Below, one piece after another: positions 638-32,175 of a DNA stretch of 34,663 bases; position 1 is the stretch's first letter, and each line of letters opens with the position of its first letter. Both the position numbers and the translations under genes were made by a program. The stretch spans positions 1-34,663 of the forward strand of contig JAYEKW010000041.1 of the NCBI GenBank assembly GCA_034716895.1, in the 5' to 3' direction. Source of the DNA: Candidatus Neomarinimicrobiota bacterium. Lineage in GTDB: Bacteria; Fidelibacterota; UBA8477; JABMPR01. The notes under the pieces were generated by a model. The model saw only the letters and a program-made list of their open reading frames with translations. It made no database searches and was not told the DNA's origin.

Positions 638-2431
638 TTAGCTTACTCGGAACTTCGCCCACATTTTGATCAAAATAACTGACGCAATTATGGAAACTGT
701 TGTAGTAACTATAGCTGCAAATGTATTTGAATAGAGCCAGAAACCGATGGAAAATAGACCGTTGTAGATCACAAGTAACCCCAGAAATACTCCCAGTATG
801 CTAGATGGCAAATCCCATTTCTCTGAGATATAGACATCAACATTCTCACCGTCCTGTTTAGCCTTGTCCAAAACCTTTTTCCAGCCTGGACCACCAGGAG
901 TTATTTTGCGGTAAAAATTTAGTAACGTTTTCTGGTCACTTGGTTTTGTAAGCAGGGTGACCAATACCCACCCTACCGTGGTGATAGCCACGCCGATGAC
1001 CAGTTTTTTCCATTCAATAATATCCGCAAATCCCAAACGATGGTGGATGAGCTCAAAGTAAAGGGCGACTACAAATGATATGACCATTGCAGCAATTTCA
1101 CTAATGGCATTGATCCGCCACCAAAACCAGCGGAGCAAAAACAGGAGTCCTGTACCAGCTCCGATCTGCAGCATGATGTGAAAGGCTTGCAAGGCGTTAC
1201 TCAGGAACAAGGCCAGTGTACTTGCTAGAATCATGAGAATGAGGATTGTTCCTCGGCCAATCAGGACCAGTTCTTTCTCGCTGGCTTCAGTTTTAACAAA
1301 CCGTTTATAGAAATCATTCACGACATAGGATGCACCCCAGTTCAGGTGAGTAGAAATGGTTGACATTACGGCTGCGATAAGAGAGGCTACCACAATTCCT
1401 AATATGCCAGCAGGCAAATAGGTGAGCATGGCAGAATAGGCCAGATCGTCTTTTAGGATGTTTGCATCAATATTTGGAAAGGCAGCCCCTAAGGATTCCA
1501 GGTCCGGGAAAACAACCAGAGAAGCCAGCGCGACCAGAATCCAGGGCCAGGGGCGTAAAGCATAATGAGCCAAATTGAAAAACAGGGTGGCTCCCATGGC
1601 ATTCTTTTCATCCTTTGCAGCTAGCATGCGCTGGGCGATATAGCCACCACCACCGGGTTCGGCACCAGGATACCAGACACTCCACCATTGAACAGCAATG
1701 GGAATAATCAACACAGTCATCAATAAATTCGTATCTGAGAAATCTGGCAGGAGAGATATCTTACCACTGACTGCAGGATGGGATAATAAATTTGTCAGCC
1801 CACCAACCTCTGGCAAATTAACCACAATAACTGCTGCATATACGGCACCAATCATGGCAATAAAAAATTGAATAAAATCAGTAATAAGCACACCGCGTAA
1901 GCCACCAAGCATACTGTATATTACAGTTACCAAAGAGGCCCAAAATATGGTTTCAAAGGGGGTGAGTCCCAGCATGACCCCACCAATTTTAATTGCGGCG
2001 AGTAATACAGTGGCCATAATTATAACATTAAAAAAGACCCCAAGATAAAGAGACCGAAACCCCCGTAAAAAGGCTGCCGATTTTCCACTATAGCGCAGTT
2101 CATAAAATTCAACATCAGTCAATACTTCTGAGCGGCGCCATAATTTCGCATAGATAAAAACAGTCACCATTCCGGTGAGCAGAAATGCCCACCACATCCA
2201 GTTCCCGGAAACACCATGTTGGCGAACAAGGTCTGTAACCAGGTTGGGTGTATCTGCCGAAAATGTAGTTGCAACCATTGAAACACCCAATAACCACCAG
2301 GGCATACTACGCCCCGAAGCAAAGAATTCCGCTGAATTTGAACCTGCTTTTTTGGCTACGCTAAGTCCAATGATCAGTGAAATTGCAAAAAATCCAAAAA
2401 TTGAAATCCAGTCGATAAATTGTAGTGTCAT
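638..2431 (-). CDS. Sodium:solute symporter (SSS family)
   Basis: A 597-residue integral membrane protein of the sodium:solute symporter family (LeuT-fold, SGLT-like), expected in the inner membrane and moving a small organic solute with Na+. It starts with a membrane helix (DWISIFGFFAISLIIGLSVA), then the family's FFASGRSMPWWLLG block. Near the middle lies IAAVMSTISTHLNWGASYVVNDF, quoted here only to mark the conserved Na+-site helix region. About 13-14 hydrophobic helices are visible over the full usual length. The ATG at 2431 has an AGGA about 7 bases upstream. It probably shares a transcription unit with the acetyltransferase upstream (2698-3813). A related paralogue lies at 7877-9661. 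Substrate inferred from context: an amino sugar or short oligosaccharide released by the neighbouring glycosidases. Confidence 0.9.
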   Translation of the reverse strand: MTLQFIDWISIFGFFAISLIIGLSVAKKAGSNSAEFFASGRSMPWWLLGVSMVATTFSADTPNLVTDLVRQHGVSGNWMWWAFLLTGMVTVFIYAKLWRRSEVLTDVEFYELRYSGKSAAFLRGFRSLYLGVFFNVIIMATVLLAAIKIGGVMLGLTPFETIFWASLVTVIYSMLGGLRGVLITDFIQFFIAMIGAVYAAVIVVNLPEVGGLTNLLSHPAVSGKISLLPDFSDTNLLMTVLIIPIAVQWWSVWYPGAEPGGGGYIAQRMLAAKDEKNAMGATLFFNLAHYALRPWPWILVALASLVVFPDLESLGAAFPNIDANILKDDLAYSAMLTYLPAGILGIVVASLIAAVMSTISTHLNWGASYVVNDFYKRFVKTEASEKELVLIGRGTILILMILASTLALFLSNALQAFHIMLQIGAGTGLLFLLRWFWWRINAISEIAAMVISFVVALYFELIHHRLGFADIIEWKKLVIGVAITTVGWVLVTLLTKPSDQKTLLNFYRKITPGGPGWKKVLDKAKQDGENVDVYISEKWDLPSSILGVFLGLLVIYNGLFSIGFWLYSNTFAAIVTTTVSIIASVILIKMWAKFRVS

Positions 2432-2517
2432 TGTATTTTCCTAATGTTAAACCATATAAGCTGTATTATTTGTCAACCATCTTTAAAAAAGTTCAGGTGG
2501 ATCATTACTATGCTTGG

Positions 2518-2642
2518 TTGAGCCGTCTTTGTGAGTCCCCTTAGGAGGTGGCATTCTCCAAGGCTATGTCTTGGGCTTAAGAGATAGCCGTCTGTCTCCA
2601 CACAGACCGTCTTCGGCGTGGGCCAAGCCTGATCCCGCTCAG
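2518..2642. other. Hairpin-rich intergenic element, candidate structured RNA
   Basis: The 266-base gap between the two minus-strand genes contains nested self-complementary segments. One hairpin (2562-2589) has arms GGCTAT/ATAGCC, a G·G mismatch, inner arms TCTT/AAGA and a six-base loop. A second (2590-2607) follows without a gap, with arms GTCTGT/ACAGAC. Bases 2518-2523 (TTGAGC) can pair with 2637-2642 (GCTCAG), closing a domain of about 125 bases. The motif CCGTCT occurs three times. It is richer in GC than the surrounding spacers. It could be a leader RNA of the symporter gene (minus strand) or an independent small RNA on either strand. I do not recognise a known RNA family. Confidence 0.35.
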
Positions 2643-2697
2643 ACTGTCAATTGGCGTGCCTCAAACTACATGATCTAATATCAAATCAAAGTCCACA

Positions 2698-3813
2698 TTA
2701 TATTCGTATAAAGATCTTCTTTTTATATAGCCAATAGGTTAATGCCCACAGCAAGCCCCAGAGCAAGAGTGATTCTAAAGTTAACGTGAAGGCATCTGAT
2801 GTGAAGCCAAAAATACCATATACAAAGGGATGAATAATTTTTCGGAACCATTCCGTCCCACCCGTATGGGAAAACAGATAGATAAATAGGGGATTCATGC
2901 CCACAAATGTTGAAAAAACTGCCCATGATCGAATCCGGCGAACATCGATGAGCCAATAAAGAAAAGCCAGAGTGAGCAGTGCCCAACCCCCTGATGCAAA
3001 CACAAATGTTGTCGTAGAAATTCGTTTAACAATTGGCGTGAAAGGATCAAGTCCATATCCAATAACCAGCATCGCCAATCCGGCAAAACCGATAATTTTA
3101 AGCTTGCTCTGCCAGTTCCGTTTACTCATTAAGATCATTCCAGCCAGGACACCCCAAATGGTGTGAGCACTGGTGGGAATGGCATTGAAGGCGATCCAGT
3201 GACCTGCAGAAACTTTGCCCATAAGTAACATATCCATCCAGCTGCCAAAGTTGTGACCAGGGGTAAATGCCTGATCATATCCTGGCACCGACCATGTTCT
3301 ATATAAAACCTCAGTGAGTAATAACAGACCAATGGAAATAGCGAATTGAATTTTCATTGACTTGCGCATGATGAGAAATGCGATAAGATAAGTAACCGAA
3401 AGCTGAGCCAGGACATCCCACAACTCAAAGGTGATTTTCCCAGGGCCAATGCAGTACAGAGCCCAGCCAAGAAATAACAGGATCGCCGATCTTGTTATGG
3501 CATGTTTGAAACTATCTAACCAGCTCTGTCCTTTGGCCCAGCGAGCTGCGAAAGAGAAAGGCATGGCGACTCCGACGATGAACATAAAGTAGGGCTGAAT
3601 CAAATCCCAAAAGCGTAGTCCATTCCAGGGGTGATGATGAAATTGCAGAACGAAAGATTGCCAAAGGCCGTCCTCTGCGCCGAATTCCAGCAGGTGCTCA
3701 TAGAGAAAGGTGGCTTCACCAATCAATAAGAACATGGTCAAGCCCCGGAATACATCCAGGGACAATAAACGCTCGCTAATTGCTAGATGTTTATTCGAAG
3801 CAGTGCTATTCAT
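2698..3813 (-). CDS. Transmembrane acetyltransferase, HGSNAT/NagX type (COG4299, DUF5009-like)
   Basis: A 371-residue multi-pass membrane protein of the family that includes human heparan-alpha-glucosaminide N-acetyltransferase and bacterial NagX. The N-terminal block LSLDVFRGLTMFLLIGEA is followed at residues 59-65 by HHHPWNG and then a hydrophobic DLIQPYFMFIVGVAMPFS segment. These align by eye with the human HGSNAT region around its catalytic histidine (H-A-S-W-N-G), making H60 the likely acetyl-accepting residue. About ten hydrophobic helices follow. Known family role: acetyl transfer from cytoplasmic acetyl-CoA across the membrane to a terminal amino sugar. It is divergent from the glycosidase operon and upstream of a symporter. 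Inferred substrate here: terminal galactosamine. Alternative: a NagX-like role in amino-sugar uptake without a defined acceptor. Confidence 0.82.
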   Translation of the reverse strand: MNSTASNKHLAISERLLSLDVFRGLTMFLLIGEATFLYEHLLEFGAEDGLWQSFVLQFHHHPWNGLRFWDLIQPYFMFIVGVAMPFSFAARWAKGQSWLDSFKHAITRSAILLFLGWALYCIGPGKITFELWDVLAQLSVTYLIAFLIMRKSMKIQFAISIGLLLLTEVLYRTWSVPGYDQAFTPGHNFGSWMDMLLMGKVSAGHWIAFNAIPTSAHTIWGVLAGMILMSKRNWQSKLKIIGFAGLAMLVIGYGLDPFTPIVKRISTTTFVFASGGWALLTLAFLYWLIDVRRIRSWAVFSTFVGMNPLFIYLFSHTGGTEWFRKIIHPFVYGIFGFTSDAFTLTLESLLLWGLLWALTYWLYKKKIFIRI

Positions 3814-3897
3814 TACTTAGTCCTCGTTTCAAAATTCTTTTAGTCAGTAAAAAGTTGAGTAGGGAATATAGGTAAGAATTTGAATTATGGTATCTAA

Positions 3898-3911
3898 TTA
3901 AAATATTTTAA
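3898..3911. promoter_or_regulatory. Palindrome TTAAAATATTTTAA, candidate ROK operator
   Basis: A perfect 14-base palindrome in the 191-base divergent spacer between the acetyltransferase and the GH36-like gene. The identical 14 bases form the core of a longer palindrome upstream of the ROK repressor gene (13570-13593). A weaker AT-rich variant follows at about 3927-3940. The spacer is AT-rich, so chance occurrence is possible. Regulation of both divergent units by the ROK protein is inference. Confidence 0.45.
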
Positions 3912-3952
3912 AAAGAAAGTTAGACATATTAAAAAATATTATTTATATTCGT

Positions 3953-3979
3953 GCGCTCTAAAATTGCTCATTGGCGCTC
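3953..3979. promoter_or_regulatory. GCGCTC direct repeat, two helical turns apart
   Basis: GCGCTC occurs at 3953-3958 and again at 3974-3979, a start-to-start distance of 21 bases, in an otherwise AT-rich promoter region just before the GH36-like gene at 4005. Such phasing can mark a direct-repeat activator site. Two six-base matches are weak evidence. Confidence 0.2.
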
Positions 3980-4004
3980 AATAACATCAAGGAACTAAAA
4001 TTTC

Positions 4005-5885
4005 ATGAAAACAATCTCCATAAAAAAGTTCACTCCAGTTTTTACCATTAATGGCATAGAGCATCGCTTCGAAAATTTACCCCTGAAACCGGGTACTGTC
4101 ATATCAGGAGATATGGTATTAAAATTATGGGAAGATCACAAAGCTATTCGATTCTCACTTAGCCAAAAGAATGGAAAGACTTACTCTCTTGATAAAGTGC
4201 ATTACAAGTTTAGTGTCCCCCTAAGAAACTTCGGGAAAATACTTATTCCTGATTCAGGTCGTTTCTTTATGGAAAAATTCTTCCCTCGGCAAGTTTGGAG
4301 TTTCAAGTTTACTTCAACGGGTCGAGCTCTGGCAAATCCCTATTTCTGTCTACTTAACGCTCATGAAAAAGTAGATTTTGGCTTTGGGTTACTTGGGAAA
4401 ATCTATGAATCAGAATTTCATTTCCATAGCCCCGGCGCAAACAAGAAAAATAGCCTCACGGTTCACGGTGGAGTGGCCAATGCTAAATTAAGCTGGAGTG
4501 TGAAATTTCCTCTGTGGGATATGCCGGTTGGAGAAGTAAGTGTTTTTGAGGATGGAATCTATCAGTCAGCTGGCGAAGAAAATTGGTTTGAAAATCTTCG
4601 TGAATATGGCCGGATTTATCAGGACTATCATAATCTTAAATATACAATTCAGGATGAAGGTTTCCGGCCTGCTCTGTGTACCTGGAGGATTATTAATTCG
4701 GACAATATGACCCATGATTGGATTCTTGATACTGCCCGAGGTGCTAAAGAGTTAGGCATGAAAGCGTTGATCTTTGATGATGGTTGGTACGGAATTGGTT
4801 TGGATGGCCAAAGTTTAAAAGGTGATATGGGTGATTGGCCTATTACCATTAAAGGGAAATTTGATGATATTAGGGAAACCGTTAGAGCTGTCAAAGACAT
4901 TGGGATTGCCCCAATATTATGGTTCTGTCCCATTGGAATTGGTCCATACGCAAAATCGAAACCAAAAGTAAAGCATTTACTTACTCATGTGAACCAAGAA
5001 CTTTACACCTGCAGCGCTCGTTTTCATACCCTTTGTGTACGAAGTCCTGAAGCCCGGGAAGTGATGGTCGAAAATCTACTCAAGCTTATTTCCTATGGTG
5101 CTGAAGGTATAAAAAGTGATCTATTTGATTATATGCCCGATGCTGCTTGCGATTCGACAGAACACAGTCACGATTGTGATACAACCAGCGAAGGGCTGCG
5201 CCGCACCTTTAAATTGTTATTTGATGAAGCCATGAAGGCCAAGCCGAATCTTATTTATAGTGAGAAAAATAACTATGGAAACGTAGAATTGGCCACGGAT
5301 GGTAGTCATGTACGCGGTGGTGATTCGCCCTTTGATGAGAATATTAATACCCATCGTAGTATTTATCCGGCGGCCTATATGCCTATTGTTCATAACGACT
5401 ATCTGGCATTCTCAAATTTTGAGGAACCTGAAAAATTAGCCATTATGCTGATGAAGCAAATTACAACCGGTGTTCCTAATTTCTCGATTAATGTCCAAAA
5501 GATTAGTCTTAGACATGCCAAAATTTTAAAAGCCTGGCTCAGTTTTTTTGATGATCATCTCGACCTGTATAAGAAGGGTGATTTTAAACCTCAGAATTCA
5601 GTCATGGATACCTTTCAGAGAGTCAATGACCAAAAGGCATTTATCAGCGTTTTTGCCACGGGGCGTGAGATCAAGTGGGTCGATCGACCCCATGTGTTTG
5701 TGCTTAATACCACTGAATATGATGACCTCTACCTGTCAGCCTCTCAAAAGGGTACCTATCGAAGGACTCTCTATAATCACCGTTTAGAAATGATCAGTAC
5801 CTCTGATGTACAATTGCCTGAGGGTAAAATTAAAGCTCCCTCAGCTGGCCTAGCCCACTATGAAAAGATTGGTGCCTCATCATGA
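4005..5885 (+). CDS. Clan-D glycoside hydrolase (GH36/GH27-like), alpha-galactosidase or alpha-N-acetylgalactosaminidase
   Basis: 626 residues, no signal peptide, so probably cytoplasmic. Residues 1-210 form a beta-rich N-terminal domain. The TIM barrel starts near residue 218 and shows the family landmarks: FDDGW (257-261), a GDWP segment (276-279), KSD with the likely nucleophile D372, and RGGDSP with the likely acid/base D440. A beta-rich C-terminal domain closes the protein. Known for this clan: retaining cleavage of terminal alpha-D-galactosides or alpha-GalNAc. The ATG at 4005 has AAGGA 11 bases upstream. Its stop overlaps the next gene's start (ATGA), so translation is probably coupled to the nucleotidyltransferase. 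The choice between galactose and GalNAc specificity cannot be made from motifs; the neighbouring GH109 and GH114 genes favour GalNAc or galactosamine. Confidence 0.82.
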   Translation: MKTISIKKFTPVFTINGIEHRFENLPLKPGTVISGDMVLKLWEDHKAIRFSLSQKNGKTYSLDKVHYKFSVPLRNFGKILIPDSGRFFMEKFFPRQVWSFKFTSTGRALANPYFCLLNAHEKVDFGFGLLGKIYESEFHFHSPGANKKNSLTVHGGVANAKLSWSVKFPLWDMPVGEVSVFEDGIYQSAGEENWFENLREYGRIYQDYHNLKYTIQDEGFRPALCTWRIINSDNMTHDWILDTARGAKELGMKALIFDDGWYGIGLDGQSLKGDMGDWPITIKGKFDDIRETVRAVKDIGIAPILWFCPIGIGPYAKSKPKVKHLLTHVNQELYTCSARFHTLCVRSPEAREVMVENLLKLISYGAEGIKSDLFDYMPDAACDSTEHSHDCDTTSEGLRRTFKLLFDEAMKAKPNLIYSEKNNYGNVELATDGSHVRGGDSPFDENINTHRSIYPAAYMPIVHNDYLAFSNFEEPEKLAIMLMKQITTGVPNFSINVQKISLRHAKILKAWLSFFDDHLDLYKKGDFKPQNSVMDTFQRVNDQKAFISVFATGREIKWVDRPHVFVLNTTEYDDLYLSASQKGTYRRTLYNHRLEMISTSDVQLPEGKIKAPSAGLAHYEKIGASS

Positions 5886-6757
5886 TTACTAAAAGCCTAA
5901 TCGTTCTTGCCGGTGGTCTTTCTTCTCGGATGAAATCAAAGCGTGGTGATGATCAAACTAATATTAATGATATTCGCGAAGCAGAGAAAAAAGATAAGGG
6001 GGTTATTGGAGTTGGACCGGCCGGTAGACCATTACTGGACTATCTGCTCTGGAATGCTCGTCAGGCAGGATTTGAAGAAGTTGTTTTGGTGACACGCTCA
6101 GAAAATTCTGGCATAAAAGCACACTATGGCAAAGCCGATCACAACAATGATTTCCATGGGTTAGATATCTCCTATGCCATTCAGCATATTCCTGAAGATA
6201 GAGTGAAACCTTTTGGCACATCAGATGCTCTGTTACAGGCGATGGATCAGTATCCGGGGTTTATGGATAAAAGTTTTGTGGTTTGCAATTCTGATAATCT
6301 ATACTCAGCAAAAGCGCTGGAGCAAATTCGGAAATTTCAGAGTCGCAATGCCTGGGTAGATTACAATCGGGATAAGTTAGGTTTTGCCCCAGAACGTATC
6401 GCTGGGTTTGCTGTCACCAGTATTGATGCAGATAACTATTTATTGGATATTATAGAAAAGCCAAATTCTGAACAGGTCGCCAGTGTAAGTGATGCCCATG
6501 GTAGGGTAGGTGTAAGTATGAATCTTTGGAAATTATCAGGTCCGCAGATCTATTCCTTCCTGAAAGATTGCCCTGTGAGTCTGGAGCGAGATGAAAAGGA
6601 ATTGCCTCAGGCCATTTTAGCAATGGCGCGTTCCAATGCTAAATCGGTTCAAGCATTAAAAATGGAAGAGGTCGTACCTGACTTAACTGAAAAAAAAGAT
6701 ATTGCCCGCGTTCGTGAATTTTTATTTAAGGAATATGGAGAAGAGCTATGCTGGTAA
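5882..6757 (+). CDS. Sugar-1-phosphate nucleotidyltransferase
   Basis: 291 residues with the Rossmann-like nucleotidyltransferase fold. The N-terminal nucleotide-binding loop is LAGGLSSRM (9-17), a variant of the usual LAxGxGTRL loop, and a metal-binding aspartate lies in VVCNSDN near residue 137. The predicted reaction is hexose-1-phosphate plus NTP giving NDP-hexose plus pyrophosphate, in the cytoplasm. It overlaps the GH36-like gene by four bases (ATGA) and the GH114 gene by ten, so it sits inside a tight operon. Together with the GHMP kinase at 28285 it could form a kinase/uridylyltransferase salvage pair. The loop departs from canonical GalU/GlmU sequence, so the sugar specificity may be unusual. 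Confidence 0.78.
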   Translation: MITKSLIVLAGGLSSRMKSKRGDDQTNINDIREAEKKDKGVIGVGPAGRPLLDYLLWNARQAGFEEVVLVTRSENSGIKAHYGKADHNNDFHGLDISYAIQHIPEDRVKPFGTSDALLQAMDQYPGFMDKSFVVCNSDNLYSAKALEQIRKFQSRNAWVDYNRDKLGFAPERIAGFAVTSIDADNYLLDIIEKPNSEQVASVSDAHGRVGVSMNLWKLSGPQIYSFLKDCPVSLERDEKELPQAILAMARSNAKSVQALKMEEVVPDLTEKKDIARVREFLFKEYGEELCW

Positions 6758-7815
6758 AATCAGGTGTCAAACATCTCATGCTCATGTCGTTTCTGCTACA
6801 GGTCAGTTTAATGGTGGGGTGCAGTAGTCAGGAGCAGGTTAAGCCGGTGGAGCAGGTGAATGGTCCCTTAGCTGGATTTACATCTGAATCCAGATACTTG
6901 GTTTATTATGGCGATTGGTCACCCGAACAAGTTCAGTATTCTAAAAAATTTGACCTGGTTATTCTTCATCCAAAATCAAATGTCACTGCAGAAGTTGTAA
7001 CTGAAATTCAAAATGGAGTTGATGGGATTACCAATAACGAGGATGATTGCCTTGTCGTTGGCTATGTTTCCATCGGCGAGGAGAATCCAGGTCCACTCCT
7101 AAAGGGAAATGGACGCGGTCCCGTTAGCTGGGTAGATAGTGCTCTGGTGTATGGTGAAACAGGAGTTGCCAGCTACTATCTGGATGGCGATAATGACGGT
7201 GAAGTTGATTACAATGGCACCTGGGGGAGTCGCTACACCAACGCTGGTGATCCAGAATGGTATAATGAAATTCTTAATCATACCGATGGCTTAAAAACAG
7301 TGGTAGACACTCTGGGCTGTGATGGCTTCTTTATGGATACAATTGATTCTGCCTCTCCCTGGCATACCTTTGCCTGGATGATTCCAGGTATGCATAAAAT
7401 TATTGTACAAATAAGATCAGATTTTCCAAGTTCCGTCTTGATTGCCAATCGTGGCTTATTTTATTTTTATGATACCTTGCCTGAGGTTTACCGATATAAT
7501 ATCAGAGAACTGGTCAATGCAGTCATGTTTGAGTCCTATTACACATCCTGGAATTGGGAGACATCTGAAGGTGAGGTAAATCCCTGGTTTGCGGAAAATC
7601 ATAAAGCTGAAGCGGTTCCTCATGTAAACCGTGAGGCCGCTAAGCCGGATGGATTTACTGTGTTATGTCTTGATTATCTTAATCCGGAGCAATCGGACTA
7701 TGAGCAAATGCATAAGGCCCAGGCTGATGAAGTAGCTCTACAGGCCCATTGGCTGAATAGTGTCACTGATGTCTTGCTGAGATCAGGTAAAGATCTAAGC
7801 CGAGAAATACCTTGA
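6748..7815 (+). CDS. GH114-family lipoprotein (endo-alpha-1,4-polygalactosaminidase type)
   Basis: 355 residues. The N-terminus is a lipoprotein signal with the hydrophobic core LQVSLMVG and C25 as the acylation site, so the enzyme is probably anchored to a membrane. The single catalytic domain covers about residues 48-345. GH114 landmarks are an early YYGDW strand, GYVSIGE with E111, GDPEW (167-171) and DGFFMDTID with D197; E111 and D197 are the likely catalytic acids. Known for GH114: hydrolysis of alpha-1,4-linked galactosamine polymers, for example by fungal Ega3. The start overlaps the nucleotidyltransferase gene by ten bases. A second GH114 enzyme at 24422 has the same landmarks but an added sorting tail, so one is anchored and the other appears to be exported to or beyond the outer membrane. 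Confidence 0.85.
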   Translation: MLVKSGVKHLMLMSFLLQVSLMVGCSSQEQVKPVEQVNGPLAGFTSESRYLVYYGDWSPEQVQYSKKFDLVILHPKSNVTAEVVTEIQNGVDGITNNEDDCLVVGYVSIGEENPGPLLKGNGRGPVSWVDSALVYGETGVASYYLDGDNDGEVDYNGTWGSRYTNAGDPEWYNEILNHTDGLKTVVDTLGCDGFFMDTIDSASPWHTFAWMIPGMHKIIVQIRSDFPSSVLIANRGLFYFYDTLPEVYRYNIRELVNAVMFESYYTSWNWETSEGEVNPWFAENHKAEAVPHVNREAAKPDGFTVLCLDYLNPEQSDYEQMHKAQADEVALQAHWLNSVTDVLLRSGKDLSREIP

Positions 7816-7876
7816 TAACGAACCTCAGTTTCCAGAATTGTAGAAATAAATATAAGAATACAGGATGAATCTATAA

Positions 7877-9661
7877 ATGGCTATACTTGATTGGGGAATC
7901 GTAGGCGGATATTTACTTCTATCACTAGGTGTGGGACTGTATTTCACAAGAAGAGCTTCTAGCAGCTTAGATGACTATTTTGTGGCAGGTAGAAGTTTGC
8001 CTTGGTGGTTAGCTGGAACCAGCATTGTAGCCACTACTTTTAGCTCAGATACACCTCTCATGGTAGCGGGGATGGTACGTGACAGCGGAATTTATGAGAA
8101 TTGGTTCTGGTGGTCGGCCGCCTTTGGAAGCTTAATTTCGGTTTACTTTTTCTCGAAATTGTGGAAGCGGTCTGGGGTTAGAACTGATATCGAATTTATC
8201 GCATTGCGCTATGAAGGGAAAGGTGCTGTTTACCTGAGATATTTCCTCGCCCTATATAAAGGAATCTTCTTTAACATGTTTATTCTGACATCTGTAACAC
8301 TAGCCGTCGGAAAGCTTTTTGGCGTTATCCTCCACTTGAGTCCGGAGCCTCTTATTACCCTACCCATCCTTGGACCTATCACTCCATCATTGGCATTGAT
8401 AGTCGGTCTAGCCACAATGACTTTTTTCTATACGATCTTATCTGGACTATACGGTGTTGTCTACACTGATCTACTCCAGTTTGTTCTGGCCATGGTTGGG
8501 GCGATTAGTTTGGCCTGGTTGGCCTGGGCCGATGCAGCATCTACTGGCGTGAGTGTTGTGGAGCGCTTATCCGCGAGTCCGGGTTTTAGACCCGAGATGT
8601 TGAATTTTTTCCCCAGTTTTGAAAATTTCGATTTAAAAGTGCTTACCTTTGTCGTGTATTTGGGTGTGCTCTGGTGGGGCATGGCACCTGGGTATGCCTA
8701 TCAAATTCAGCGACTTCTGGCCTGTAAAACTGAAAAAGATGCCCTCTTAGCTAACTTGTGGTATAGTGTTTTGCATTATGCTGTGCGGAGTTGGCCATGG
8801 ATCATTGTTGGTGTGCTGAGTGTCATCTATTTTCCCGACCTGGTTGATTCTGAAAAGGCATATCCAATGATGATCGATAAGTTTATGCCGGTTGGTCTGA
8901 AAGGGATTATGATAGCCAGTTTATTAGCGGCCTATATGAGTACCATAAATACCTTACTCAATTGGGGCTCATCTTATGTGATAAATGATTTTATCAGACC
9001 GCGAAATCCTGAGCTAACCGAAAAAAAAGCAATTTTCTATGGCCGTGTTACCGGGGGTCTACTAGCCGTGCTAATGCTCTTTTTTGTAACACGCTTAAAC
9101 AGTATTCTAGGTATTTATAAATACGTCACGCTCATGGAGTCAGGAGCTGCAATTATTCTGGTACTTCGTTGGTATTGGTGGAGGGTCAATGCCTGGACAG
9201 AAATATCAGCATTGGCTGCATCACTTATTGTTGCAAATTTTCTACAGCTTTGGTCAGTAACTGCCCCGCCACTTGAGGGCTATGATGGGATGTTTCCCGT
9301 AAGAATTTTGATCACAACTGTGGCCGCAGCTATCGTGTGGATCAGCGTTATGATTTATACGACAACTGAACCCAGTGCCCATGTAATCGAATTTTATAAA
9401 AAATTGCGGATCGGTGGAAATGGCTGGAAACGAGTATTCGAGTCTCTACCAGATTTTCAACCCTATGCCCATAGTTTTAAAAATGATGTGATGGCATATT
9501 TTGCGTCTCTGATTGTTATTTTTGGGTTCCTGTATGGTGTTGGGCAGCTTCTGTTTGGCGAGACATGGTCTGGCTATATTGCCCTGGGAGTTGTATTTAT
9601 GAGTGCTGTGTATTTATGGAAGGCTCTTGATAAGATCACAGTTTCTGTCGACGAGCACTGA
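7877..9661 (+). CDS. Sodium:solute symporter (SSS family), second copy
   Basis: 594 residues with about 14 hydrophobic helices and the same landmarks as the symporter at 638-2431: DDYFVAGRSLPWWLAGTS near the N-terminus, a YQIQRLLACK loop, and SLLAAYMSTINTLLNWGSS for the Na+-site helix. Expected in the inner membrane. It starts 61 bases after the GH114 stop, with AGGA 11 bases before the ATG, and lies inside the plus-strand glycosidase operon. The two symporters are clear paralogues of similar length but quite different sequence, which suggests different sugars or different regulation rather than recent duplication. Confidence 0.9.
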   Translation: MAILDWGIVGGYLLLSLGVGLYFTRRASSSLDDYFVAGRSLPWWLAGTSIVATTFSSDTPLMVAGMVRDSGIYENWFWWSAAFGSLISVYFFSKLWKRSGVRTDIEFIALRYEGKGAVYLRYFLALYKGIFFNMFILTSVTLAVGKLFGVILHLSPEPLITLPILGPITPSLALIVGLATMTFFYTILSGLYGVVYTDLLQFVLAMVGAISLAWLAWADAASTGVSVVERLSASPGFRPEMLNFFPSFENFDLKVLTFVVYLGVLWWGMAPGYAYQIQRLLACKTEKDALLANLWYSVLHYAVRSWPWIIVGVLSVIYFPDLVDSEKAYPMMIDKFMPVGLKGIMIASLLAAYMSTINTLLNWGSSYVINDFIRPRNPELTEKKAIFYGRVTGGLLAVLMLFFVTRLNSILGIYKYVTLMESGAAIILVLRWYWWRVNAWTEISALAASLIVANFLQLWSVTAPPLEGYDGMFPVRILITTVAAAIVWISVMIYTTTEPSAHVIEFYKKLRIGGNGWKRVFESLPDFQPYAHSFKNDVMAYFASLIVIFGFLYGVGQLLFGETWSGYIALGVVFMSAVYLWKALDKITVSVDEH

Positions 9662-13593: not shown

Positions 13594-13634
13594 GCTTGAT
13601 AAGGCACAACTAGACGCTTATATTGGAGACAAAT

Positions 13635-16862: not shown

Positions 16863-16896
16863 ACAAATGAAATCTTTAAAGTATAGAGGCGTAGCT

Positions 16897-17901: not shown

Positions 17902-17913
17902 GCTGGGGGGAAA

Positions 17914-19248: not shown

Positions 19249-19257
19249 GTGATTATG

Positions 19258-22200: not shown

Positions 22201-22260
22201 ACTTGGACCCAGTTCTTGAATCCACGCGACATATTTATTGGTATGCGGTTCTCATTTTAA
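19258..22260 (+). CDS. TonB-dependent receptor with N-terminal carboxypeptidase-regulatory domain
   Basis: About 1000 residues. AGGTG at 19247-19251 supports ATG 19255 or 19258 as the start; a GTG at 19249 is also in frame. Signal peptide to about residue 27, then a CarboxypepD_reg-like domain (GKVAGKVIDETTGEGLPGAN, about 30-110), a plug domain (ILTTQLGVSA, FSIRGGGINETNVIVDGVSL, EILSGGFNAEFGSVRSGIVN) and a 22-strand-type barrel ending in a terminal phenylalanine (GMRFSF). Role: energised import of an oligosaccharide or other large ligand across the outer membrane. No SusD-like gene is adjacent. A run of nine G (20514-20522) lies in an extracellular-loop-like glycine stretch and is a possible slippage site. 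Confidence 0.92.
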   Translation: MKVNLHMNLKSYLTIIILLMTVNLSFGASSGKVAGKVIDETTGEGLPGANVMVLERWNGTNVIPVPRVIGAATDVEGDYYLINLAPGIYNISCNMIGYANKKNEKIVVYSNRTTSVDFGMVAATLEGEEIVVLADREVIKLDVSASQIHIRAEDIAALPLEGIDEILTTQLGVSAESNASGSGFSIRGGGINETNVIVDGVSLMNDRTQVALSNISMSSIEEIEILSGGFNAEFGSVRSGIVNIITREGQDQLELHGDVRFSPPARKHFGPSPYAPDGPFWTVYAGDKAFEGITREDVESGDYPFEFIGWNQVALNNARDNIESNDYTPQEALEIWKWRHREIEYGNEPDVVADITLTGPTPIKGLHFMYSQRLENTQYYLPFSRKAYFNSVSQLKLNYRLNNKIKLQILNLYSYEDGVGGGSVYGASPAVLNGSSGSVYTMSYMANSPTNIWAEGAYNPIQNYTYVGGLQMSYIFNPSSYMDIGMEYTKDKTVQEPLDDRDTTLIHFIAGVGYDEGPRGHLGDGAEQWDQQNQSILGGLGRGQNHSTYEGLRLHATYVSQINKQNQIKAGFDLSYTQFKERELQNSGGGIYSYEEAPTQWIYYTEDPLKGSAFIQDRLEYEGLIANFGLRMDYYDPRNKPFNLNDPFNSPYTLGYFLGDNTFDSLRTDEKTATFVLSPRLGISHPISAEAKIYFNYGHFYQVAQPRYYFNVKPGGVQIIPNLSLDFPKTIQYEIGYEHSIAKQYLVHLGAYYKDVSNEVVALEIRNGQLGAGDIQIATWANNQYRDIRAVEFRIEKNMGKWFTFYTTFEYLASSTGRTGEIGIYEDPLLYYEASLLYDQIRTDPIPSVSANLNFMTPSKYGRKIAGVYPLGGWQASIITSWSDGGKFILDETAALSTRHWLESVDWTNTDLSIEKTTLLGNRNFVIYATISNLFNEKRLTNVERYPTYLSSLKLPHETGDQHGDDQYGIYDQDYLELGWYTWTQFLNPRDIFIGMRFSF

Positions 22261-22277
22261 AGGCTCAGGAAAGCACT

Positions 22278-24392
22278 ATGAAATTTGTAAGATTATTTAA
22301 AATACTCAGCGTTTTATTGCTGTTGATCACTACAATTCAATCCCAGACCTATGTGGGGAGCCGATTCCATGATTTAGGGAAATTAAAGCATCGAATCGAT
22401 ACGGGACTATTCCTGGATACTTCTGGTCCTACTAAGCCGGTACTAAGCTGGCCACAAGGGGTTTATGACTCAGAGAACTGTCAATTTTCCATTGTTTCGA
22501 TCAATGTCGAATCGTACAGATCATACTCTGTTGATTCATCCAGCGTTCCATTTGATACCACTGAAACCCTGAATGAAAAGTATGTTGGTATACCATCACT
22601 TGATACTGATCTGGCTGCACAAGGTCCTCCTTGGGGTATATATGAATATCGTCGTTATGCACCACCTCAAATTACGGTTGATGGTATCAATGATAGTTAT
22701 GACTTCAATGGTGAGCTTGCCGAAGAGATGATGTCCGATGTAGAAATCGATCTTGTGTTGAAATCTACACCCGGATTTTACGTAACAATGAAAACCTACT
22801 CATTTGCCAACGAATACCATGATGACTATATCATATATCACCTGAATTTTAAATATACCGGAGATTCTGACTTTCGGGATTCTCTGCCGGATTACCCCTC
22901 CCAAGATTTATCAAATGTATATTTTAGAGTAGGCTATAACATGCTTCCCAGTTTTGCTGGAGAGAAGGAGATTTTGGGACACCGCTGGGGCGGAGATGCT
23001 TTCGATGACTGGATGGACTGGGAAATGGTTGATCCACTTTATCCCTCAGGAATTGATAATGAACGGGATGATATGCTGTTGGTATATGGCTGGGATGGCG
23101 ATGATACCGATATTGCATCTCTTGAATCTGGTGGCAAATATTTTAATGATACGGGAGACCCGAGTTTTCTACATGAAGTAAAAGGGCAATTCCTCTCTTA
23201 TCAGTTCCCGGGATATACACTCATTCACGCCGATAAGACCACTTCTGATCCTTCTGATGACCCCGATATGCCAGGTACCCTGGCCATGTCCACCATCTTT
23301 GAAGTGTGGGCGGGAACTTATAGCGGCCAACCTGGCTATGATTATCTATCCTCAGGGGAAAAACAGCATCCACCAGATTGGGAGGATCCAGGGAACAGTC
23401 ACTGGATGAAAGGTGACCATATGCATATGAGCATGGGTCCCTACGACTTTTCGTTAGGTGAGGATGTAGATATTGTCTACGCCGTTGGTGTTGGTGGTGT
23501 GAATTATGATGAGACTGTGACCAAAGGACAGGAATGGTTGAGTTGGTATCGTGATGAAGCAGGTGCCACATTTGACGACGACGCTAAACGTGATTTTATT
23601 GGTCAGGGACTGGATTCATTGTACGATTATTTAAGCCGGGCACGCTGGGCCTGGGATCGGATGAACAGTGGACAACCTGTACCGGCTCCACTGCCATCTC
23701 CAGCCTTAGAAGTATCTAGTGGTGGTGGGTTCATCAAGCTTGTCTGGGAAGATATGAGCTCTGCACTCGACCCCGTAACCGGTGTGGCCGATTTAGCTGG
23801 TTATCGAATTTACCGGAAACTGGGTGCTCAATTGATCAATTTCAAAGAAGATGAATTTGGTAAAGGGATTGTCTATGAGCTGATTGCTGAATTGGGAACA
23901 GATGTAACAGAATATCTGGATACAACGACTGTACGGGGCGAGAGTTATCGCTATTACGTAACCACTGTTGACGATGGGACGCAAAATGATGGTCTTTTTC
24001 CAGGGAGGGCATTGGAGAGCTCGCACTATCAAAATCGAACGGCTACCGATGCAGTTGCTTTTAAGCCAGCACCCACAAATAACGATAATGTAAGAGTTGT
24101 GCCGAATCCATACATCATTTCTGGTAACGAACTCAATTTCACAGGGGAGGGGGACAAGCTACTTTTCGTAAATCTTCCTGCCTTCTGTACCATCAATATT
24201 CACAATTCTACTGGCGACTTAATCAAGACCATAGCCCATACAACTGGTAGTAGTGACGAAAGTTGGAATCAGTTGAGTGACTCGAATCAACGAATTGCCA
24301 GTGGTGTTTATTTGGCCATGATTTCCGATTGTGAAAATCTTGATGGTAGCACACTACCTGACGTGTATGAAAAATTTGTGGTTATCCGTTAG
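22278..24392 (+). CDS. Secreted 704-residue protein with FlgD-like C-terminal domain, function unknown
   Basis: The start is ATG 22278, with AGGA seven bases upstream, giving the signal peptide MKFVRLFKILSVLLLLITTI; the longer frame from 22194 overlaps the receptor and lacks such an N-terminus. Residues 20-500 are rich in Asp, Tyr and Trp with many DD and GWDGDD-like acidic turns, suggesting a beta structure and calcium sites. A fibronectin-III-like segment (about 500-600: GGGFIKLVWEDMSS, YRIYRKLG, YYVTTVDDG) precedes a FlgD/T9SS-like tail (VVPNPYI ... GVYLAMI ... VVIR). I do not recognise a catalytic family. The gene stands between the TonB receptor and a GH114 enzyme in the same operon, so an extracellular binding or structural role in glycan capture is plausible. 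Confidence 0.65.
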   Translation: MKFVRLFKILSVLLLLITTIQSQTYVGSRFHDLGKLKHRIDTGLFLDTSGPTKPVLSWPQGVYDSENCQFSIVSINVESYRSYSVDSSSVPFDTTETLNEKYVGIPSLDTDLAAQGPPWGIYEYRRYAPPQITVDGINDSYDFNGELAEEMMSDVEIDLVLKSTPGFYVTMKTYSFANEYHDDYIIYHLNFKYTGDSDFRDSLPDYPSQDLSNVYFRVGYNMLPSFAGEKEILGHRWGGDAFDDWMDWEMVDPLYPSGIDNERDDMLLVYGWDGDDTDIASLESGGKYFNDTGDPSFLHEVKGQFLSYQFPGYTLIHADKTTSDPSDDPDMPGTLAMSTIFEVWAGTYSGQPGYDYLSSGEKQHPPDWEDPGNSHWMKGDHMHMSMGPYDFSLGEDVDIVYAVGVGGVNYDETVTKGQEWLSWYRDEAGATFDDDAKRDFIGQGLDSLYDYLSRARWAWDRMNSGQPVPAPLPSPALEVSSGGGFIKLVWEDMSSALDPVTGVADLAGYRIYRKLGAQLINFKEDEFGKGIVYELIAELGTDVTEYLDTTTVRGESYRYYVTTVDDGTQNDGLFPGRALESSHYQNRTATDAVAFKPAPTNNDNVRVVPNPYIISGNELNFTGEGDKLLFVNLPAFCTINIHNSTGDLIKTIAHTTGSSDESWNQLSDSNQRIASGVYLAMISDCENLDGSTLPDVYEKFVVIR

Positions 24393-26623: not shown

Positions 26624-26653
26624 ATAGAAAACAAACCTAAGGAGGGTTGTAAA

Positions 26654-28189
26654 ATGCGTAAAATGCTACAGAACACGCTGGTTGGACTATCCATTCTGCT
26701 ATTTGCAGTGTATGGAATGGCTGCAACTATCACAATTGATGGAGACATGTCTGACTGGACAGCAGATATGCAAGTCGATGTGGCGCCAGGAGATGTTGAA
26801 GAAACTGGTGATCAGGCAATTGTTGAAATAGATATTAAAGATGTCTATATGACCAATGATGCTGATTTTCTCTATATCCGCGTGGATATTAATGAAGATG
26901 GTATGTTTGGTGATCTTGAAAGTGTTAGTGGAAAACCACAGATATTTCTAGATACAGACATGTCCGCTGCAACTGGTCTCACTTGGGACTGGTGGGCAAC
27001 TGGTGTTGATTATTGGATCGAATGGCCATTAACCAGCCAGGATACTATTGTAAATATACAAGGTTCTGGATCGGTAACAGAATGGGTAAATGTAGAATGT
27101 GCCACGGTTTCAGCAATTAATGCTGATGACAATGGGTATGAGATATCTATCAGTCGTACCGACTTGGGACTTCTCGATGCAGCTGGTGTAAGGTTATTAG
27201 TCTTAAACGAGGAAACTGCAACCTGGGGCAACGATGCGTTTCCAAATGATATCGGCAGTACTACGATGGATTATTTCTTTAGTTATGATATCACAATTGA
27301 TGGTGATATGACAGATTGGTTCCCCCACATGCAGATGGATGCCCCACCTCATGGCCTTGAAGAGACAGGTGACATTGATTATCCATCAATGGATATTAAA
27401 GATGTCTACATGACCTATAACGATGAATTTGTCTTTATCAGAGTTGATATCAATGAAGATGGAATATTTGGTGATCTTGAAAGTGTTAGTGGCAAACCAC
27501 AAATCTTTTTAGATACAGATGCCAGTGCGGCAACTGGACTAACTTGGGATTGGTGGGCTACTGGTGTGGATTACTGGATTGAATGGCCACTAACTAGTCA
27601 GGATACAATTATTAATATCGTTGGTGCTGGCTCTGTAACAGAATGGGTCGAGATTGAATGTGCTACTGTTTCAGGGATTAATGCTGATGATAATGCTTAT
27701 GAGCTCTCTATTGAAAGAGACGCTATTGGTGAAATCGGAACGTTCTACGAAAGTCTTCGTTTGCTCGTATTGAATGAAGAAACAGTGAATTGGAGCAATG
27801 ATGCTTTTCCAAATGACATTGGTGGAGAAACAGCTACCTTTGCTTATGGTTCAGGTGGAACAGCTCGGGTAGAACCAGTAGCTATTGATGAAGAACTTAT
27901 TTCTATCCCAAGTGAATTTGCCATCGTTGGTAACTATCCCAACCCTTTTAACCCAAGTACTACAATCAGATTCACCCTTGGTGATGCTTCTGCAGTTAGT
28001 TTGGATGTTTATAACATGCTTGGCCAAAAAGTGGCCTCCGTTTATAGTGGCATGGGTCATTCTGGTGCGAATGAGATAACCTGGAATGGTATGAATGATT
28101 TTAATCAATCAGTAGATTCTGGTGTATATCTTTATCGTATTTCAACTCCTGCCGGTGTAGTTTCCGGTAAGATGATTATGCTCAAATAA
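26654..28189 (+). CDS. Secreted protein with two tandem CBM9/DOMON-like modules and T9SS sorting domain
   Basis: 511 residues. AAGGAGGG eight bases before the ATG is the strongest ribosome binding site in the window and predicts high expression. Signal peptide to about residue 24. Two modules of about 185 residues follow (residues 26-212 and 213-395), each opening ITIDGDM and containing FLDTD, GLTWDWWATGVDYWIEWP and NDDAFPNDIG-like blocks. No catalytic motif is visible; the Trp-rich block could form a sugar-stacking surface. The tail (about 420-511) has NYPNPFNPSTT, WNGMNDFNQSVDSGVYLYRI and ends MIMLK, a textbook type-IX sorting domain. A likely abundant surface or secreted glycan-binding protein encoded at the end of the receptor block. 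Confidence 0.75.
   Translation: MRKMLQNTLVGLSILLFAVYGMAATITIDGDMSDWTADMQVDVAPGDVEETGDQAIVEIDIKDVYMTNDADFLYIRVDINEDGMFGDLESVSGKPQIFLDTDMSAATGLTWDWWATGVDYWIEWPLTSQDTIVNIQGSGSVTEWVNVECATVSAINADDNGYEISISRTDLGLLDAAGVRLLVLNEETATWGNDAFPNDIGSTTMDYFFSYDITIDGDMTDWFPHMQMDAPPHGLEETGDIDYPSMDIKDVYMTYNDEFVFIRVDINEDGIFGDLESVSGKPQIFLDTDASAATGLTWDWWATGVDYWIEWPLTSQDTIINIVGAGSVTEWVEIECATVSGINADDNAYELSIERDAIGEIGTFYESLRLLVLNEETVNWSNDAFPNDIGGETATFAYGSGGTARVEPVAIDEELISIPSEFAIVGNYPNPFNPSTTIRFTLGDASAVSLDVYNMLGQKVASVYSGMGHSGANEITWNGMNDFNQSVDSGVYLYRISTPAGVVSGKMIMLK
26729..27835 (+). repeat. Internal tandem duplication of a ~560-base module
   Basis: Unit 1 runs from 26729 to 27289 and unit 2 from 27290 to about 27835. 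The middle thirds are nearly identical at protein level (from VDINEDG through WPLTSQDT) and still clearly alike at DNA level, with changes mostly at third codon positions. This points to an intragenic duplication kept under purifying selection. Confidence 0.85.
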
Positions 28190-28210
28190 GTTAGAGAGTT
28201 GTGTTTTTCC

Positions 28211-28233: not shown

Positions 28234-28284
28234 AACTTCTATCCTGGGTTTCACCGAAGAGTGATTCTTTCTAATAGGAATTCT

Positions 28285-29361
28285 ATGACCACTTCACCCA
28301 TTGTTCGAGTAAAATCACCTGGACGGATATGTCTTTTTGGGGAACACCAGGACTATCTTGGATTGCCTGTTATTGCCACGGCAATAAACCGTTATATAAA
28401 AATTCAGGGTCAGCTAAATACCGATCCATTCATGACTATCAATACGCCTGACATTAATACAGTGCGTAAAATTAACCTGGAAGAACAATTTAAGGTCTTA
28501 GAATCCCGGGATTACATCGCTTCCACAATCCGGGTACTGCGCCGTGAAGGCATAAAATTTCACACTGGCTGTCAGCTCACCTATTCAGGAAATATTCCCT
28601 ACAAGGCAGGTGCTTCAAGCTCTAGTGCAATTATAGTGGGTTTGCTAAAAACTTTGCTAAAATTATACAGCCCAAATGATCATTATGATTCTCATGCAAT
28701 AGCTCATTTGGCATATCAGGCTGAAGTACTGGAACATGGGGAACCTGGTGGTATGATGGATCACTATTCTATTTCTCTGGGCAATGTTATCCATATCGAT
28801 ACAGCTACTTATGAGGTTCAACAGTTGGGGGATTCTCTTGAAGGATTAATCATCAGTAACTCATTAATCCCGAAAGAAATTCTGGAAGTTCATGGGCGGA
28901 TTCGACCATCGATTGAACGGGCAATATCAATTCTCAGGCAGAATGATCCCGAATTCAAGCTCGCTCAAGTACAAGTTGAAGAAATTGATGAGTATTGTGA
29001 ATATTTACCAGAATCGCTAATCCCAATATTTTATGCAACAATAACCAATCATGAATTTACACGCCAAGCGCTTAAACATTTTAAACAGGAATCTGTTGAC
29101 CTCAAGCAAATCGGAATTTTGATGAATCTGCACCATAAACATCTGCGCGACTATTTACAGATCACTGTTCCAAAGATCAATCTCATGATTAACCGGGCGA
29201 TGGACATGGGAGCACTGGGAGCTAAAATTAATGGCTCAGGTGGGGGGGGGACAATTGCAATTTTGGCACCAGGCCGTGTAAAGGAAGTCTGTGCAGCCCT
29301 GGAAAAGGTCGGTGCAATGAGTTATCCTGTAAAAGTTGACAAAGGGGCACGATATGAGTAA
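28285..29361 (+). CDS. GHMP-family sugar kinase (galactokinase-like)
   Basis: 358 residues from ATG 28285, which has AGGAA five bases upstream; an in-frame GTG at 28261 is a weaker alternative. GHMP motif 1 is SPGRICLFGEHQDYLGLPVI (11-30), close to the galactokinase PGRxNLIGEHTDY signature. Motif 2 is AGASSSSA near residue 110, and motif 3 is AKINGSGGGG near residue 313. An internal EPGGMMDHYS block also resembles sugar kinases. Predicted reaction: ATP-dependent phosphorylation of a sugar at C1, in the cytoplasm. It overlaps the GH109 gene by eight bases. A GalNAc or galactosamine 1-kinase is the contextual inference; galactokinase proper is the alternative. Motif 3 is encoded over a run of nine G, a possible slippage site. 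Confidence 0.85.
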   Translation: MTTSPIVRVKSPGRICLFGEHQDYLGLPVIATAINRYIKIQGQLNTDPFMTINTPDINTVRKINLEEQFKVLESRDYIASTIRVLRREGIKFHTGCQLTYSGNIPYKAGASSSSAIIVGLLKTLLKLYSPNDHYDSHAIAHLAYQAEVLEHGEPGGMMDHYSISLGNVIHIDTATYEVQQLGDSLEGLIISNSLIPKEILEVHGRIRPSIERAISILRQNDPEFKLAQVQVEEIDEYCEYLPESLIPIFYATITNHEFTRQALKHFKQESVDLKQIGILMNLHHKHLRDYLQITVPKINLMINRAMDMGALGAKINGSGGGGTIAILAPGRVKEVCAALEKVGAMSYPVKVDKGARYE

Positions 29362-30754: not shown

Positions 30755-31478
30755 ATTTATTTTATTGCCGAATTTATTTATTCTGGCAGTACTCATATTT
30801 ATTAGATGCAGTAGTGATCCTGAAGCAGCCCTGAGTTGGCAGGATTCAACTGTGGCAAATCTCCGCTTTGATATTCAGCTCTCTCCAGATATTTACCGAT
30901 TGAGTAATTTTGGTGAACCACCCCAAATGGCCCTTTGGCTGGAAAATGAGAATGCCAGTGAGATTCGGACCCTTTGGGTTTCAAATCGCCTTGCCAGGGG
31001 AATCTGGGTGGGCAAGGTGGTTTGCCCCACGGCTCTGCCTTATTGGATATCGCGCCGGGAGTTGGAAACGGGTGGGGAAATCCCTTCCTTTTTAAAACCG
31101 CTGCCAGATGGGATTACCGGGGCAACCCCCAAAGACAAACTTTCAATTTATACTCAAGTACCCCCAGGCTCAAACTGGCGCTATTTTCTCGAACTCAATG
31201 TATCCGGAGACTATAATGAAAGCTTCACAGCCAGCCAGCCTAATGGAGAGCCTGATCCAGATGGGAATGGTCAACCCTCACTGGTATACTCTGGTAGATT
31301 AAAAGCTGAAACTGGATGGGTTGACTCTACAGTTTTGATTGGACGGACTGAACAAGCTGTAGTTCCATCCATGCTCAACCATGACTTAGTTTCAATTACC
31401 AGTGCAAGCCAGGTCTTACGCAAACTAGAAGTGACATATTTATCTACGGATGTTCCTTCTCTGTCGCCAGACAGATAA
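30735..31478 (+). CDS. Predicted lipoprotein, DUF2271-like
   Basis: The frame is open from 30672, but translation from there overlaps the GH109 coding end by more than 80 bases. TTG 30735 gives MGLLRTKFILLPNLFILAVL as a signal followed by FIRCSS, a plausible lipoprotein cysteine, so a start near 30735 is preferred; no strong SD is visible. About 247 residues. The segment MALWLENENASEIRTLWVSN, and TALPYW after it, resembles DUF2271 periplasmic proteins, and GITGATPKD precedes a strand-rich tail. No enzymatic motif is seen. It lies between the GH109 enzyme and a CBM9-like protein in the same transcription direction. The function is unknown. Confidence 0.55.
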   Translation: MGLLRTKFILLPNLFILAVLIFIRCSSDPEAALSWQDSTVANLRFDIQLSPDIYRLSNFGEPPQMALWLENENASEIRTLWVSNRLARGIWVGKVVCPTALPYWISRRELETGGEIPSFLKPLPDGITGATPKDKLSIYTQVPPGSNWRYFLELNVSGDYNESFTASQPNGEPDPDGNGQPSLVYSGRLKAETGWVDSTVLIGRTEQAVVPSMLNHDLVSITSASQVLRKLEVTYLSTDVPSLSPDR

Positions 31479-31500
31479 TTCCTCTGAGGAGTAGTTTATA

Positions 31501-32175
31501 GTGTTCTCCAAATCATATTCATTAAGTAAAGTCACCCGGAAACCAGAATTTCAAGGGTTCTGGGAAGGTGCAGTATGGGGTCAAGTGACTCCTCTAGATA
31601 TCGCGTCATTCAGGCCTGAAAGTGGTTCTCACCGACCGAGGACCCAGTGTAAATTGATACACAGTCACGAAGGGCTCTATGGGATATTTAAGGTTGAAGA
31701 TCGATACATTCGCTGTATACACACAACCTTTCAATCCGATGTACATGAGGATAGCAGTGTTGAAATATTTTTACAGCCCCCAAAAAAACAGGGATATTTT
31801 AATTTTGAGTTTAATTGCGGAGGAACCCTCTTCGCCAGCTATGTTACAAATTCTACTCGAGTGAATAAAAACATCAAGGAATTTCAATTATTCTCCCAGG
31901 CTGAGAACCTACAGATCAAACGCTTTCACTCACTACCTTCCAGGGTCGATCCCGAACAAAAAGCTCCAGCTACATGGCTTTTGGAGTTTTTTATCCCCTT
32001 TGCGATTCTAGAGAACTATGTTGGAAACTTGGGCGATGATGAGAAGCAATTATGGAAGGGAAACGCTTTTAAATGTGGAGAGAAAACATCCCATCCCCAC
32101 TGGGGGTCGTGGGTAGCATTGGATGAGCTGGAATTCCATGCTCCTGCAAATTTTGGCGAACTTCGTTTTAGATAA
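31501..32175 (+). CDS. CBM9-like domain protein without signal peptide
   Basis: 224 residues starting at GTG 31501, supported by GAGGAG nine bases upstream. The whole protein is a single CBM9-like/DOMON-like beta sandwich: an early W..A.WGQV segment, GLYGIFKVEDRYIR, the conserved EDSSVEIFLQP, YFNFEFNCGGT and a closing FGELRFR. Stand-alone CBM9-like proteins of this length are common beside glycan-utilisation genes. There is no signal peptide or sorting tail, so it is either cytoplasmic or exported by an unseen route, which is odd for a carbohydrate-binding module. Last gene of the plus-strand locus, 22 bases after the DUF2271-like gene. Confidence 0.72.
   Translation: MFSKSYSLSKVTRKPEFQGFWEGAVWGQVTPLDIASFRPESGSHRPRTQCKLIHSHEGLYGIFKVEDRYIRCIHTTFQSDVHEDSSVEIFLQPPKKQGYFNFEFNCGGTLFASYVTNSTRVNKNIKEFQLFSQAENLQIKRFHSLPSRVDPEQKAPATWLLEFFIPFAILENYVGNLGDDEKQLWKGNAFKCGEKTSHPHWGSWVALDELEFHAPANFGELRFR

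Follow-up and report, generated by a model that had tools for sequence, protein, structure and literature searches.

A candidate locus for the utilisation of a Pel- or galactosaminogalactan-like polymer in Candidatus Neomarinimicrobiota

We analysed a stretch of 34,663 nucleotides (contig JAYEKW010000041.1, 1-34663; hereafter the window) from a Candidatus Neomarinimicrobiota draft genome of 3.45 Mb and about 95% completeness. Twenty intact genes at 638-32175 (~31 kb) make up a locus that, judging from its gene families and their relatives, probably serves the utilisation of a foreign, partly de-N-acetylated alpha-1,4-linked galactosamine (GalN)/N-acetylgalactosamine (GalNAc) polymer of the Pel/galactosaminogalactan kind. 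Pel and galactosaminogalactan are among the main cationic polymers in the biofilm matrices of bacteria and fungi. Literature searches found no published locus for the utilisation of either; most parts of the present locus are known, whereas their arrangement is new. Gene identities were drawn from Pfam, NCBIfam and PDB profile searches, and predicted localisation from signal sequences, lipobox, Tat (twin-arginine translocation) motif (PF10518) and sorting tails as read from translations.

Two glycosidases related to the PelA hydrolase

A seed alignment was used to scan 84,980 species genomes for relatives of two window glycosidases (6748-7815 and 24422-26623). The scan returned 67 proteins from Neomarinimicrobiota, KSB1, Ignavibacteria, Sumerlaeota, Verrucomicrobia, Planctomycetes, Clostridia and other groups; a 47-member domain alignment contains an invariant Asp (within DGxFxDT) and a nearly invariant Glu. 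Against the PDB, the profile of these 47 members matched the PelA hydrolase, glycoside hydrolase (GH) family 166, first (5tcb, 7.2e-8; 9cgy, 2e-7), and GH114 structures more weakly (0.004). A single-sequence PDB search gave nothing relevant, and the family link needed the 47-member profile. A preliminary description of the window had called both enzymes GH114. This assignment did not hold: they belong to a broader family nearer to the PelA hydrolase, although 24 of the 47 members individually match the GH114 profile PF03537 at E<=0.1 (best 3.4e-13).

An AlphaFold (AF2) model of 6748-7815, with a mean predicted local distance difference test score (pLDDT) of 93.4, has the modified beta/alpha barrel of the GH114/GH135/GH166/GH191 group, a grouping described in PMC12054363. 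In a Foldseek search the model matched PelA best (6.3e-14, template modelling score 0.62 by query), then GH191 and, lower in the list, Ega3 (GH114). The catalytic Asp/Glu pair aligned with that of PelA is kept in both window copies, as D197/E262 in 6748-7815 and D174/E243 in 24422-26623. Based on the profile, the fold and the aligned catalytic pair, both proteins are placed among the predicted members of this group, nearest GH166; the PelA-like proteins may constitute a separate family. They share the fold and the Asp/Glu pair with the PelA hydrolase domain (GH166, 5tcb) as well as with GH191, GH114 and GH135 enzymes, PelA being the best match by both profile and fold. Their identity to PelA is ~18%, they lack a PF03537 match, and they lie in a locus for uptake and salvage rather than in a synthesis operon.

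Association of the family with pel operons

The genes flanking 65 family members were clustered without use of annotation. A pelG gene was found 2-8 kb from the glycosidase gene in 8 of these 65 loci, with 0.42 expected if each genome carried one pelG; this count includes related genomes, and six independent cases give 5e-6 by the same calculation. PelG was confirmed by Pfam in one member each of the Lachnospiraceae, Desulfuromonadaceae and Verrucomicrobia, representing three phyla (1.3e-135, 4.1e-163 and 7.5e-127), the first and last of these loci also encoding a PelF-type glycosyltransferase (PF11997, 7e-78 and 8e-80), and the remaining five loci were identified by BLAST clusters alone. In a Desulfuromonadaceae pel operon (L040:2893-5670, 9824-11722), a GH114-domain protein proper (PF03537, 7e-20) is accompanied by a second protein, which belongs to the PelA-like family.

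Several of the pelG-bearing operons also contain DUF4832. In Streptococcus intermedius, the DUF4832 protein of the pel operon (SIR_1591; operon context in PMC7112168) disperses Pel aggregates comparably to the PelA hydrolase (PMC12345266). The window protein at 15192-16862 matches DUF4832 at 229.8 bits, above the cut-off, and DUF4874 likewise with a high score; no other DUF4832 match was found in the genome, and the protein is homologous to a pel-operon DUF4832 protein (9e-21). Its likeness to SIR_1591 is at family level, and it differs in having a sorting tail and in lying outside any pel operon. This gene, the NagX/HGSNAT-type gene at 2698-3813 and the pel-operon and Cerasicoccus contexts of the PelA-like relatives had not been named in the preliminary description. 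In Lachnospiraceae, the PelA-like family and DUF4832 both occur in the pel-type operons L023, L032, L052 and L054; these two proteins may stand in for the PelA hydrolase domain in Gram-positive Pel loci that lack it. In L052, a purple-acid-phosphatase N-terminal-like domain follows the PelA-like domain.

Gene content and conservation of the locus

The genes of the locus are as follows (coordinates, strand, identity, evidence).

638..2431, minus: sodium:solute symporter (SSFa); PF00474 1.2e-32
2698..3813, minus: NagX/HGSNAT-type transmembrane amino-sugar N-acetyltransferase; NF046061 NagX 2.2e-37, HGSNAT 8vkj 1.8e-7, H60
4005..5885, plus: clan-D GH36-type alpha-galactosidase/alpha-galactosaminidase, no obvious signal peptide; PF02065 1.5e-9, GH36 PDB matches 3.4e-5
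5882..6757, plus: sugar-1-phosphate nucleotidyltransferase (NTPT); PF00483 6.4e-9
6748..7815, plus: PelA-hydrolase-like glycosidase of the GH166/191/114 group, predicted lipoprotein; profile, AF2, Foldseek, D197, E262
7877..9661, plus: sodium:solute symporter (SSFb); PF00474 6.9e-33
9781..11853, plus: ORF690, secreted; no Pfam or PDB match, Cerasicoccus homologue adjoins PelA-like gene
11893..13416, plus: secreted calcineurin-like phosphoesterase of purple-acid-phosphatase type (PAP); PF00149 3.3e-17
13623..14873, plus: ROK-family protein with N-terminal extension, likely regulator; PF00480 1.2e-61, nearest model NagC (NF047937 1.1e-61, below cut-off)
15192..16862, plus: DUF4874/DUF4832 protein with C-terminal sorting tail, candidate second Pel-type hydrolase; PF16116 4.2e-68, PF16173 2.8e-37
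16867..17901, plus: PorV/PorQ-family outer-membrane protein; NF033709 1.1e-52, above cut-off
17914..19248, plus: IPT/TIG-domain lipoprotein; PF01833 2.1e-10
19249..22260, plus: TonB-dependent receptor (TBDR); PF07715 5.1e-14 and carboxypeptidase-regulatory domain
22194..24392, plus: ORF732, large secreted protein with FlgD-like tail; true start probably 3' of 22194, repeated family in genome
24422..26623, plus: second PelA-hydrolase-like glycosidase, C-terminal sorting tail; genome profile match 4.0e-95, FlgD_ig/Por_Secre tail, D174, E243
26654..28189, plus: secreted protein with two repeated domains and a type IX secretion system (T9SS)-type tail (DOMON), possible surface glycan-binding; TIGR04183 5e-11, above cut-off, repeat read from translation
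28261..29361, plus: GHMP sugar-1-kinase of galactokinase/GalNAc-kinase type; PF00288, PF08544, PF10509
29336..30754, plus: GH109 alpha-N-acetylgalactosaminidase, Tat signal; PF21252 1.6e-65, PF10518
30666..31478, plus: small lipoprotein-like open reading frame, start uncertain; no family above cut-off
31501..32175, plus: CBM9-like carbohydrate-binding protein; PF16011 1.4e-25

The other genes listed in the preliminary description (the GH109 and clan-D enzymes, galactokinase-type GHMP kinase, nucleotidyltransferase, two symporters, TonB receptor and ROK protein) were confirmed by these searches, and the listed genes lie together, all present and intact. The strongest confirmation is that of GH109, which consists of a Rossmann domain (PF01408) and a C-terminal domain (PF21252) and is close to characterised members; it matched the GH109 structure 6t2b at 1.2e-108 (366.9 bits) and the solved alpha-N-acetylgalactosaminidase 2ixa at 6.4e-87 (295.3 bits). 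The GH36-type enzyme scored 37.8 bits against a PF02065 cut-off of 27 and keeps the active-site set D258/D259, W306 and K370-x-D372. Since the GH36-type enzymes include the known alpha-galactosaminidase FpGalNase (PMC11762096, also the source of the residue comparison) and this set is kept, the window enzyme may act on Gal, GalN or GalNAc.

The NagX-type protein matched NF046061 over its full length at 129 bits, below the equivalog cut-off of 480, and its H60 aligns with the catalytic His297 of human HGSNAT. NagX was proposed to acetylate periplasmic glucosamine (PMC9007349). Common to that pathway and the window are a transmembrane protein, in the window a predicted N-acetyltransferase, the catalytic His position and amino-sugar catabolism neighbours, whereas the likely acceptor in the window would be GalN or alpha-GalN oligomers, and no NagA was found above cut-off. 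The GHMP kinase matched a PDB galactokinase at 1.5e-25 and human GalNAc kinase at 8.9e-14. No Leloir galT was found; galE is present elsewhere in the genome, as is a gene that reads as nagB and adjoins pta-ackA and a GntR-type regulator. The view of the locus as self-contained was thus nearly right, except that the epimerase and NagB are encoded elsewhere and nagA did not exceed its cut-off. A GalNAc-6-phosphate route via NagA was considered and dropped on that account, the nagA match being sub-threshold.

The synteny expected for the locus was found for each half. Another genome of the genus keeps the order SSFa-NagX-GH36-NTPT-PelA-like-SSFb-ORF690-PAP, a third has a shorter run of it, and DUF4832-PorV-TIG-TBDR-ORF732-PelA-like-DOMON-GHMP-(GH36)-GH109 is found in a fourth; outside this window the two halves were not observed together, since the relatives' contigs end at that point. 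Of the phylum's 245 genomes, four have PelA-like enzymes and four have ORF690, five genomes in all, which belong to one genus. In one of these five (G005), some of the genes are split between two contigs (L083:1-11076, L009:1-17043), together with another GH36, a second GHMP kinase, a different symporter, its own NagX-like and nucleotidyltransferase genes and a DeoR-like regulator.

Outside the genus, two Cerasicoccus species encode the PelA-like protein beside a Spherulin4/GH135 protein (PF12138, 7.6e-41), an ORF690 homologue, a LacI-type regulator, an NAD epimerase, a nucleotidyltransferase and a clear N-acetylhexosamine 1-kinase (NahK, 3.5e-76). The logic of this cluster is that of the window, NahK taking the place of the GHMP kinase. 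The ORF690 family (9781-11853; L071:12388-16506, L072:12417-16559) is conserved between Neomarinimicrobiota and Cerasicoccus, and amino-sugar genes adjoin it in the loci seen. Pfam and PDB profile searches gave ORF690 no family match; all they recognised was an accessory F5/8-type C domain in those Cerasicoccus homologues that are longer. The ORF690 motif DGIY(F/L)DS is of a kind found in barrel glycosidases. An AF2 model from a 5-sequence alignment reached pLDDT 34 and was not taken to fold search.

The KSB1 and Ignavibacteria relatives carry the block made up of the TonB receptor, PorV-like protein and surface proteins. This block was set aside as evidence of substrate because ORF732 has weaker paralogues at many genome positions. 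A SusC/SusD polysaccharide utilisation locus would pair its TonB receptor with SusD; no SusD-family match was found among the window proteins. The secreted phosphoesterase (11893-13416) within the locus makes a phosphate-bearing substrate conceivable. The window also contains a small protein, a YgjP-like metallopeptidase and a regulator-like gene outside the locus; downstream of the window lies a gene cluster that reads as type IV pilus/MSHA-type secretion (L006:3450-13375) and looks unrelated.

Substrate, proposed pathway and significance

The Pel- or galactosaminogalactan-like target of the preliminary description has more support than that description gave it: PelA similarity by profile and fold, the pel-operon relatives, DUF4832, NagX and GH109 speak for it. 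Its GH114 call, taken strictly, did not hold. Several observations weigh against such a target. PF03537 matches neither glycosidase nor anything else across the genome, and GH168 fucanases also appear in the Foldseek list of 6748-7815, with weaker E-values. In the family tree both window enzymes fall in an 11-member group with KSB1 and Ignavibacteria proteins, apart from most pel-operon members, so that the substrate is assigned at the level of the family. Enzymes of the GH109 and GH36 families are also known to act on other substrates, the GHMP kinase is closer to galactokinases than to GalNAc kinase, and with nagA sub-threshold the route to glucosamine-6-phosphate is incomplete. Finally, the negative search for the Pel exporter gene pelG (PF16933), which favours a foreign polymer, covered a draft genome of ~95% completeness.

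The separate clade, shared with KSB1/Ignavibacteria loci, would suit PelA-like enzymes of shifted specificity acting on a different alpha-GalNAc/alpha-Gal heteropolymer, such as an archaeal or bacterial cell-wall glycan, a lipopolysaccharide O-antigen or an algal glycan. The GH36 enzyme and galactokinase-like kinase suggest galactose too, but this hint does not separate the readings because fungal galactosaminogalactan contains Gal as well. As DUF4832 and NagX also indicate a GalN-containing polymer, and GH135 accompanies the same enzyme set in Cerasicoccus, we regard such a heteropolymer as unlikely. Remodelling or recycling of the bacterium's own Pel-like polymer would fit the presence of relatives of both enzyme types in pel biosynthesis operons; yet PelG was not found in the genome, nor above cut-off in any of 60 relatives, and the locus contains uptake and sugar-salvage genes. 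Without a detectable pelG, use of a foreign polymer is likelier than self-remodelling, which we consider very improbable.

Equally improbable is the use of alpha-GalNAc from mucin or other O-glycoproteins, as in the Bacteroides thetaiotaomicron locus BT4240-50 (PMC11992087). That locus has GH109 and a sugar 1-kinase in common with the window, but its kinase is of the APH rather than the GHMP type and it encodes a mucin protease and a GH2 enzyme, whereas no M60-type peptidase or GH2 is among the window's Pfam matches. Conversely, PelA-like, DUF4832 and NagX proteins have no role in the BT4240-50 scheme, and no SusD was detected in the window. With bifidobacterial N-acetylhexosamine salvage of the galacto-N-biose/lacto-N-biose (GNB/LNB) type (NahK, nucleotidyltransferase, epimerase), the window shares the logic of 1-kinase, uridine diphosphate (UDP)-sugar and 4-epimerase; here the kinase is GHMP-type, not NahK, and the epimerase is encoded elsewhere in the genome, while Cerasicoccus has NahK itself.

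For a foreign Pel- or galactosaminogalactan-like polymer, the following pathway can be proposed. The PelA-like protein 24422-26623 and the DUF4832 protein 15192-16862, predicted to be secreted with sorting tails, would cut the polymer extracellularly, and the oligomers would pass into the periplasm via the TonB receptor with its PorV-like and lipoprotein partners, where the PelA-like lipoprotein 6748-7815 would shorten them further. NagX, with cytoplasmic acetyl-CoA as the donor, would acetylate unsubstituted amino groups on GalN monomers or at the ends of chains. The Tat-exported GH109 would remove alpha-GalNAc, and the GH36 enzyme Gal, GalN or GalNAc. Released sugars would be imported by the sodium symporters and converted by the GHMP kinase and nucleotidyltransferase to a UDP-sugar, which the genome's GalE would epimerise to the UDP-Glc/UDP-GlcNAc series. 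Sensing of an amino sugar would fall to the NagC-like ROK protein. More tentatively, the locus might represent an undescribed class of Pel utilisation built on an acetylate-then-cut cycle, in which NagX would transfer acetyl groups across the membrane to the amines of free galactosaminyl ends, enabling GH109 to remove these as alpha-GalNAc, with ORF690 as an undefined glycosidase-like family. Such a cycle would parallel, in a bacterium, the lysosomal breakdown of heparan sulfate by HGSNAT and NAGLU.

Enzymes that cut Pel or galactosaminogalactan are of interest for biofilm dispersal, and the locus offers a candidate parts list from polymer to UDP-sugar. It also links two families, DUF4832 and PelA-like, in a setting other than biosynthesis, and points to a route by which de-N-acetylated residues may be handled.

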